A DNA stretch of 64,000 nucleotides, taken from contig NZ_BBCP01000003.1 of NCBI RefSeq assembly GCF_001316105.1, forward strand, positions 1 through 64,000. The letters run 5' to 3'. Below are positions 53,507 through 55,755 of this stretch, piece by piece (the first letter of the stretch is position 1; each line of letters begins with the position of its first letter). This stretch comes from Thermogymnomonas acidicola JCM 13583. GTDB taxonomy: Archaea; Thermoplasmatota; Thermoplasmata; Thermoplasmatales; Thermoplasmataceae. The translations under genes were made by a program, and so were the position numbers. The notes below the pieces were generated by a model that ran no database searches, had not been told where the DNA came from, and saw only the letters and a program-made list of their open reading frames with translations.

Positions 53507-54291
53507 ATGGGAAGGAGGCCTCTGCTCTACGCTGTCACGGAGGGTTTCAGTGGGGGGGAAGGGTTCTTCAGGAAGGTAGCCGAGGCACTGGAAGGGGGGG
53601 GCGTAGATATCCTGCAGTACCGCGATCTAGGGAAGCACGGAAGGCACGCTGAAATAGCGAGGAGGCTAAGGGCGATATGCAGTGACTTCGGGGTACCGCT
53701 GGCCATAGACGATGAGCCCTGGGTCGCAAGGCAGGCTGGTGCCGACATGCTGCACCTTGGATAAGGAGCTTAACCAATACAGTATCCCTCTGGTGGTCCG
53801 AAGGGGGAAGCACGGGACTGTTCCGGGATAAGACAGGGCAGCGACATGCTTGCTTCCCAGGCCATGACAGTAGGCCTGTGCTGTGCAGGCATATGCCGAG
53901 CCTGGAGGAGGCCAGGGCTGTTGTGGGCAATCTTCCAATCGGAACATCAGTCTACTGCAGCCCGGTATTCGCTGTGGAGGCGCAGGCACACGGCTATGCT
54001 TACGTTTCAGTGGGCACGCCCTACATGAGCGTGACGAAGAGGATAGCGACGGTCTGCTCCATGCAGAACCTCTCAGAGGCCGTCAGGGCAGTCAGAATAC
54101 CTGTGTACGCGGTGGGCGGCGTTAACCTCAAGAATGCTGCAGAGATCCTTGAAACTGGCGTATCCGGTCTTGTTTCTGTGTCCGCAATATTCTCTGCCAA
54201 CGACGTCAGGGGAACTGTGAGAAAGTTCATAGAGGTCCTTGAAGGTTTCACCGTTGACAGGGACCCGTTTCCTGTGGGGCTGGTGAGGTAG
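53507..54291 (+). CDS. thiE: thiamine-phosphate synthase-like protein 1, interrupted
   Basis: ThiE joins the hydroxymethylpyrimidine and thiazole moieties into thiamine phosphate. Start ATG 53507 (MGRRPLLYAVTEGFSGGEG). Motifs: DILQYRDLGKH, PLAIDDEPWVARQAGADMLHLG, then after an interruption MPSLEEARAVVGNLPIGTSVY, AYVSVGTPY, IPVYAVGGVNLKNAAEIL and GLVSVSAIFS. Between LHLG (to 53760) and MPSLEEA (from 53893) there is about 130 nt that is absent from the tandem paralogue at the same point; it contains stops in the thiE frame. So this copy is split by an insertion unless the assembly is wrong. The stop is one base before the second thiE. Confidence 0.75.
53761..53892. other. about 130-nt insertion inside thiE copy 1
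   Basis: Not coding in the thiE frame (TAA at once). It contains an inverted repeat AGGCC-ATGACAGTA-GGCCT at about 53859-53877 and a CGGGACTGTTCCGGG near 53812. No clear terminal inverted repeats or target duplication. Nature unknown: decayed mobile fragment, or assembly error. Confidence 0.45.
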
Positions 54292-54292
54292 A

Positions 54293-54968
54293 ATGTCAGG
54301 ATGGAAGCCTATACTTTACCTGATAACGCCTGACTACATTGGAGAGGGCTTCTTCAGGCTCGTGGAGGATGCACTGGATGGCGGGCCAGATGTGCTGCAG
54401 TACAGGGACAAGAAGAGCACAAGGCAGACCAGGACAGAGGTGGCGAGGAGGCTGCGCAGGATGTGCCATGACCGCGGGGTGGCCTTCGTTGTGGACGATG
54501 ACCCGTATGTTGCCAGGGACAGCGGGGCTGACCTGTTGCATGTGGGCAGGGACGACCCGAGCATTGAGGAGGCCAGGGAGGTAGTAGCAACATGCCCATT
54601 GGCTCCTCTTCGTACTGCAGCACCAGCCTCGCGAGGGACCTGGAGAGGCGCGGGTCGGCATATGTGGCATTCGGGGCCTTCTTCCGGAGCCCCCCCTCGA
54701 AGCCAGAGGCAGCCTCTGTGACAAGAAGACCATCACAGAGGGCCTGCGGGCCGTAAGGATACCGGTATATGCCATAGGGGGAATCAGCCAAACCAATGTC
54801 AAGCCGCTGCTTGAACAGGGTGTCTCAGGCGTTGCAGTGATCTCCTCCGTCTTCTCCTCGGAGAACCCTAAGAGGGCGGTCTTGGAATACAGTGGAATAC
54901 TGGCGGAGTACAGGTGCGACAGGGACCCACTGTCATGGTTCAGGAGGGCTGGTCAGGCCGGACCCTGA
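54293..54968 (+). CDS. thiE: thiamine-phosphate synthase-like protein 2 (frameshifted)
   Basis: Second ThiE paralogue, about 220 residues. ATG 54293 (MSGWKPILYLITPDYIGEG). Motifs: GPDVLQYRDKKSTRQTRTEVARRL, VAFVVDDDPYVARDSGADLLHVGRDDPSIEEAREVV, then after breaks near 54595, 54700 and 54730 AYVAFGAFFRSPSK, IPVYAIGGI and VISSVFSSENPKRAV. The phosphate-binding loops are thus present. It ends RRAGQAGP at TGA 54968. Two unequal ThiE copies side by side could have specialised, or form a heteromer; the sequence does not say which. Confidence 0.85.
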
Positions 54969-55135: not shown

Positions 55136-55300
55136 TCAAAGGATCGACACTTCGCTGACGATGAGCAGGTGCAGGGTTCCGGGGGGGGCGCGGGCCAGAT
55201 GTGGGGGGGGCGTCCAGGGGGGGGAGTCCGGGGGGGTCATGGGCTGGACACCTGCGGGGGGGGATAAGCGAAAGTCCTGATCCAGCCGCAGGCATACATT
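55136..55300 (+). ncRNA. candidate structured RNA of unknown class
   Basis: No reading frame, but nested complementary segments: GGATC 55141-55145 with GATCC 55279-55283; ACTTCGCT near 55149-55156 with AGCGAAAGT near 55267-55275 (one bulged A); GCAGGTG 55165-55171 with CACCTGC 55249-55255; and an inner GTCCAG/CTGGAC pair (55212-55217 with 55244-55249). A TATA box sits at the right distance upstream. The apical part is G-rich with several G6-G8 runs that are likely over-long. It does not match 5S, SRP or RNase P RNA motifs that I know. The T6 at 55298 is also the TATA region of tRNA-Ala. Rest of 54969-55135 is empty apart from the promoter. Confidence 0.5.
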
Positions 55301-55328
55301 TTTTAATCCCGTGAATATCGGGAATTCA

Positions 55329-55400
55329 CAGCCGGTAGATCAGCGGTAGATCGCCTGCTTTGCAAGCAGGAGGCCTCGGGTTCAAATCCCGACCGGTCCA
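55329..55400 (+). tRNA. tRNA-Ala (anticodon TGC)
   Basis: Anticodon loop TTTGCAA region gives TGC; T arm TCGGGTTCAAATCCCGA; discriminator A; no CCA; the alanine identity pair G3-U70 is present. The first two acceptor bases read CA and cannot pair with C71-C72, leaving a five-pair acceptor stem. TTTTTTAAT about 28 nt upstream is the likely TATA. A decayed integrase gene begins 50 nt downstream. Confidence 0.88.
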
Positions 55401-55450
55401 CTTGATATATTAATCGAATACTTTCATGCTAATGCTCGTTATGCTATTAT

Positions 55451-55755
55451 GAAGATCCAGCCGAAATATCAGGAGCTGCTTGCAGATGAAGACGTGCGGA
55501 CGTAGTTCGAGGATCTAGAGGCAAGATCGTTGCTGAGTACAACTGTAGCCCTGAGGAACCCCGGGCATCACTGCGAGACCATGCATACCGGCCACAGGGA
55601 AATTCTAAACATAGGAGAGGGCAACTAGAGGGATTTCAGATGCGAGCTCACGGATCTTGTCGAAGACTTGGGGGGGGAGAGAAGGATGGGCCTTGCAGTC
55701 TAGGTATAATCGAAGCCATTTCTCCGTTCCCGGAAGTGATATATGCAGCGCTCCT
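55451..55755 (+). pseudogene. decayed tyrosine recombinase (integrase), N-terminal part
   Basis: Reading from ATG 55451 gives KIQPKYQELLADEDVR, FEDLEARSLLSTTVALRN, GHHCETMHTGHREILNIGEGN, RDFRCELTDLVEDL, RMGLA and RKxYMQ. This fits the SAM-like N-terminal domain of archaeal site-specific integrases (LxDxxV-x-W, TxxxYLRxLGxFC, RDxxxDxVxxLE-x-GxAGSYI). Stops interrupt it at about 55505, 55627, 55700, 55706 and 55737; those at 55505 and 55737 sit where the family has Trp (TGG to T AG or TGA), so real decay rather than only run errors. No catalytic domain (R-HxxR-Y) remains. Position next to tRNA-Ala suggests an old integrated element. Confidence 0.6.

Follow-up and report, generated by a model that had tools for sequence, protein, structure and literature searches.

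A tRNA-Ala(TGC) gene with two unpaired acceptor positions beside a decayed integrase in the Thermogymnomonas acidicola JCM 13583 draft: a probable run-length error

Background

Archaeal tyrosine integrases of the classical kind (type II, pNOB8-type) that act at tRNA genes have been reviewed (PMC8371274). The locus described here lies in the window, i.e., the whole 64,000-nt stretch of DNA that was analysed (positions 1-64000 of contig C3 of the draft). It resembles the systems of that review's account in that relatives have the whole integrase gene beside the tRNA gene, the tRNA 3' end serves as the core and the recombinase belongs to PF00589. It differs from them in that the gene in the window is a truncated pseudogene, with a close relative on contig C7 showing one apparent frameshift. 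tRNA gene fragments left behind by integrated elements have also been described (PMC9897764). There, as here, part of a tRNA gene is duplicated by integrated elements; however, the partial copies presented in that work face a complete copy, whereas the window tRNA is itself the full-length copy. In mitochondria, mismatched tRNAs are 5'-edited by Thg1-like proteins (PMC6471195). These tRNAs share mismatched first acceptor-stem bases with the tRNA-Ala(TGC) gene of the window, but the systems covered there use Thg1-like proteins, and no member of the Thg1 family turned up in this genome or its 60 relatives. Finally, GnNiGn repeats (n > 7) have been reported in T. acidicola JCM 13583 and two other JCM genomes (PMC8044849). 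We likewise find hundreds of long G runs. While that report, in its treatment of these genomes, takes the G runs as repeats, the rRNA and tRNA comparison below indicates that many consist of surplus bases, and the repeats it lists may be artefacts of the same cause.

The draft comprises 1.74 Mb in 27 contigs, with a G+C content of about 57% and a stated completeness of 50.5%. Its relatives in our comparison are Thermoplasmatales, and the genome set holds no other member of its own genus.

Results and discussion

The tRNA-Ala(TGC) gene and the tRNA set of the draft

Features of the locus are collected in Table 1. As printed, the acceptor strands read CAGCCGG and CCGGTCC, which leaves C1 x C72 and A2 x C71 without pairing, and all the remaining arms pair. 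This agrees with the first-pass annotation, which had described CA opposite CC at 71-72 with G3-U70 and the other arms normal; both the printed letters and ARAGORN (call at 55329-55401) bear it out. Of the properties of a functional tRNA-Ala(UGC), G3-U70, the cloverleaf arms and A73 are all present, while the acceptor stem has five of its seven pairs. The missing pairs are likely an error of the draft, and the CA most likely represents upstream bases drawn into the gene because the assembly gives too few bases for the G run next to it. We also weighed whether a nearby upstream EcoRI site marks a cloning junction and rejected this, since the CA lies downstream of the site.

Table 1 Features of the tRNA-Ala(TGC) locus in the window
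Feature	Position	Strand	Remarks
TTTTTTAAT, TATA-like box of the tRNA gene	55299..55307	+	22-30 nt before position 1; putative function
tRNA-Ala(TGC)	55329..55400	+	Sole gene with the TGC Ala anticodon found in the draft
CA taken as tRNA positions 1-2	55329..55330	+	Facing C72 and C71, unpaired
Attachment core, T-loop to tRNA 3' end (left end of former element)	55382..55400	+	Exact; sole match in the window
TATTAATCGAATACTT, probable integrase arm site	55408..55423	+	Conserved beside the tRNA gene of relatives; intact elements carry its inverted counterpart at their right end
Integrase pseudogene, truncated	55449..55691	+	Matches a 429-aa tyrosine recombinase over residues 1-81 at 57% identity, E 8e-22
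TAG at codon of Trp19	55503..55505	+	TGG in L011 and on contig C7
TAG at Glu60 codon	55626..55628	+	GAG in the L011 integrase

The Rfam tRNA model found 43 genes in the whole draft. ARAGORN, run on these loci, gave 43 distinct genes with one per anticodon except for cat (three) and gtt (two); one of the two gtt tRNAs bears an intron and has a different acceptor stem. The Ala tRNAs are TGC on C3 (window), CGC on C7 and GGC on C1. A search for other tRNA-Ala(TGC) genes, as the first-pass annotation had advised, returned none among the 43, and a second copy in the draft is thereby ruled out. Another explanation would be that the window copy is a true pseudogene and that the assembly lacks the DNA with an intact Ala(TGC) gene. 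The 27 contigs would allow for such a gap, and an assembly could break at the related elements beside tRNA-Ala genes, which are repeats. On the other hand, anticodons other than cat and gtt are single in the draft; genes of this sequence type number three or fewer in most genomes and four in one, consistent with one per isoacceptor; and the window gene has no decay from position 3 on. We consider this explanation very improbable.

Among own tRNA genes, 24 have no G/C run of at least six, and of these only tRNA-Ala(TGC) has unpaired acceptor positions. In ARAGORN's register, acceptor interruptions were seen in eight other own tRNAs, all eight flagged with a G/C run of at least six; one of them, Leu(gag), pairs fully after a one-base shift. 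No run of that length occurs within the tRNA-Ala(TGC) gene. Own tRNA-Ser(TGA) (L155:99-180) is one C short in its anticodon stem, where CC is present in 16 of 16 relatives. The stem mismatch in own tRNA-Arg(TCT) is real, since it is common to relatives. Across 42 own tRNA upstream regions the A+T maximum lies at about -37 to -24. Most own tRNA genes have an A+T-rich box at this distance, but own tRNA-Ala(CGC) (L002, 1521-1592, minus strand) does not.

Comparison with relatives

The GGGCCGG start, as part of the word GGGCCGGTAGNTCAGNGGNAGANC, was found 147 times, in 83 of the 117 genomes of the order, with two occurrences in the own draft; the total is a sum over the genome table, and as the other 34 genomes have no exact match, Ala genes were judged in the 83 only. 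A base other than G at position 2 occurs once in the 117 genomes, in the window gene, and a base other than G at position 1 before G2 occurs in none. The 5'-end comparison covered 30 loci, namely the own locus, one ending at a contig edge and 28 others, and the gene starts with GGGCCGG at all 28 of the latter (the relatives' loci with a readable 5' end), whether an integrase is present or absent. From position 3 on, several relatives match the 70 bases of tRNA-Ala(TGC) at 100% identity. Own Ala(CGC) on C7 retains GGGCCGG.

Run lengths in the draft

G and C runs in the window show a pile-up at lengths of seven and eight that is absent for A and T runs. There are 58 C runs of length 4, 16 of 5, 13 of 6, 133 of 7 and 29 of 8; the corresponding G runs number 52, 28, 16, 94 and 22. 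We found no clear rule in the bases that flank the long G runs. Across the window, G and C runs of at least four are frequently three bases too long; in the Alba gene (62541), an example of an overlong run, the conserved Alba motif has an extra Gly.

Set beside those of relatives, the own 16S and 23S have surplus bases at G/C runs; for 16S, 13 loci were chosen, of which the 11 with the start word (10 relatives and the own one) were used and L207 and L216 dropped. Run lengths in rRNA were also compared to those of relatives by homopolymer-compressed alignment, using runs of conserved length. The 16S G/C runs of four gained three bases at one of four places and two bases at one more, and those of 23S gained three bases at three of seven places. 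Longer G/C runs in rRNA gained one to three bases. One C run of four is two bases short. The conserved G/C runs of three (n = 35) were unchanged in 31 cases, one base short in three and absent in one. Two of the three shortened runs are facing sides of one 16S hairpin, which makes real evolution probable for them. A/T runs of at least three were unchanged at 10 of 11 places in 16S; in 23S, this was so for 19 of 22 A/T runs of three and one of three A/T runs of four. Conserved rRNA columns have few substitutions, some of which resemble paired changes.

Protein-coding genes were mapped with proteins from 21 of 80 relatives' loci. This gave 10 distinct frameshift sites in the window, all holding G/C runs: at seven of them the run is five to seven G or C long, and at the other three the frames as read ask for one additional base in a short G/C run. 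At the DNA level, just 483 bases of the window are covered by at least five of the 80 relatives' loci. Two adjoining frame-broken genes of the thiamine phosphate synthase/TenI-like kind, apparently a tandem duplicate, lie at 53507-54968.

Reading of the 5' end

Judging from the comparison of sequences, it is probable that tRNA-Ala(TGC) is normal in the organism and mis-spelt in the draft, its first GGG having been called as a single G. If GGG were read as G, the result would be ...TTCACAGCCGG..., identical to the printed sequence; a tRNA finder would then assign the upstream CA to positions 1-2, and a single run-length error would stand in for two substitutions. This fit is no test in itself, because a two-base deletion and two substitutions give the same printed letters. 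The case for a draft error is made because of the error mode and the GGGCCGG of relatives; that this particular site is a run-length error is what we infer from them. The comparisons show that G/C run-length errors are widespread, that relatives begin with GGGCCGG and that the gene is otherwise unchanged. A draft error also agrees with this being the sole Ala(TGC) copy, with the promoter-like box before it and with the lack of Thg1 in 61 genomes. Against this, no other run of three in the draft is seen to have lost two bases, which is the main weakness; nor does the gene contain a G/C run of at least six, and some A/T runs of 23S differ as well. The first-pass annotation had offered sequence error as one option, and G/C run miscounts together with the relatives' GGGCCGG favour that option here. 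Until resequencing, neither the odd tRNAs of this draft nor its frameshifts and G-run repeats should be taken as biology.

The two-base change could also be real, in which case the sole tRNA-Ala(UGC) would have an open or two-base shorter acceptor end and would either work as it is or be restored otherwise. The tRNA set, nearly complete with one of each, has no other Ala(TGC) gene, the body of the gene is unchanged, a promoter-like box is in place, the gene contains no long G/C run, and substitutions at conserved rRNA columns are few. However, the change is in no Ala gene of the same sequence type in the 116 other genomes searched, the draft appears to drop G/C bases at other places, and a Thg1-like enzyme is absent from 61 genomes. 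A real change thus seems unlikely. If it were true, it would be a rarity: an essential tRNA, the sole one of its kind, whose acceptor end is open in a cell that lacks the known 5' repair enzyme.

The search for Thg1 (PF04446) covered the own genome and 60 relatives and matched none of the 61, while the positive control, Methanosarcina acetivorans, was matched. The known route of mending a 5' end is therefore not at hand, and known 5' editing of tRNA-Ala (Thg1/TLP) was rejected in the absence of a Thg1-family enzyme. We regard it as rather improbable that an archaeon without a Thg1-type enzyme reads GCA codons via a single tRNA-Ala with its first two acceptor pairs open. A truly open acceptor would imply that RNase P and AlaRS tolerate it, or an unknown 5' repair route.

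Integrase remnant and integrated element

The recombinase remnant that the first-pass annotation had placed downstream of the tRNA gene is confirmed by its identity to the 429-aa integrase (57%, from 55449), and it starts 48 nt past A73. The two stops at expected Trp sites that it had described are not confirmed: of the two stop codons within the matched stretch, the one at 55503-55505 does replace a Trp codon, while the one at 55626-55628 replaces Glu. Additional stops follow past the alignable part, and the integrase beyond residue 81 is gone or unrecognisable in the window. The intact integrase of L011 has as its only Pfam match PF00589 (E 2.2e-8), the tyrosine recombinase catalytic domain, a part that the window remnant does not have. 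In many relatives an intact integrase gene adjoins tRNA-Ala, and next to own Ala(CGC) on C7 lies a copy that has one apparent frameshift. The integrase of this tRNA-Ala-integrated family in Thermoplasmatales is about 85-92% identical between genera. In viral contigs, no relatives of the integrase were found, and the 35 matches of the 15-base arm motif included none with an integrase.

The first-pass annotation had advised comparing relatives for the intact element and its attachment repeats, and both were found in L164 and L166. These elements are about 17.5 and 19.3 kb long (L164:293-17883; L166:336-19622). Their two ends share only the 21-bp TCAAATCCCGACC(G/A)GTCCATT, from the T-loop to the 3' end, and the cores are flanked by inverted arms of the type AAGTATTCGCTTAATA...TATTAATCGAATACTT. 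The attachment core of the window recurs at their right ends. The tRNA 3' end was thus seen directly repeated at the element's far end in two of eight relatives' stretches, some of them cut short; a right end was not seen within the bases of the other six stretches. The window has the left core and arm only, with no far-end direct repeat. The cargo of L164 includes ParA, a resolvase, an N6/N4 methylase with a type III-like restriction subunit, a DndB-like protein and an AlbA_2 protein.

As in type II systems, the core lies outside an unsplit integrase gene (core end 55400, remnant start 55449), and the intact 429-aa genes are alike in this. A suicidal integrase of the SSV type was rejected: the core is upstream of the gene, and only PF00589 was matched, with no PF16795. 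The first-pass annotation had recognised the arrangement left by an integrated element, and a tRNA gene with a decayed site-specific recombinase is what we find. The locus is the left end of an old integrated element, at which a classical, non-self-splitting tyrosine integrase recombined with the tRNA 3' end; only about 290 bp of the old element remain recognisable, with the integrase dead. The dead integrase is an ordinary leftover of a common integrating element.

The adjoining remnant might suggest that integration or excision of the element rewrote the 5' end, and the first-pass annotation had offered, as one option, that the element's arrival changed positions 1-2. These positions lie about 50 nt outside the shared core, on the chromosome side. 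Since the shared core begins in the T-loop, positions 1-2 remain chromosomal when the element integrates. The core shared by the intact elements consists of only the last 19 bases of the tRNA and TT, and GGGCCGG is kept at the 28 relatives' loci, including those with an intact integrase, and in own Ala(CGC) on C7. Arrival of the element was hence rejected as the cause of the CA, and we give a rewritten 5' end hardly any credence.

Two further observations concern attachment sites. In L164, two cores that resemble right ends and share the same arm lie 0.7 kb from each other (17863 and 18574), which suggests a tandem insertion or a leftover end. In L004 (G000:C9:15374-15425), a tRNA-Val(GAC) gene with no integrase nearby is followed by a similar arm motif (TTTAATCTATTAATAGA), and this gene is perhaps another insertion site.
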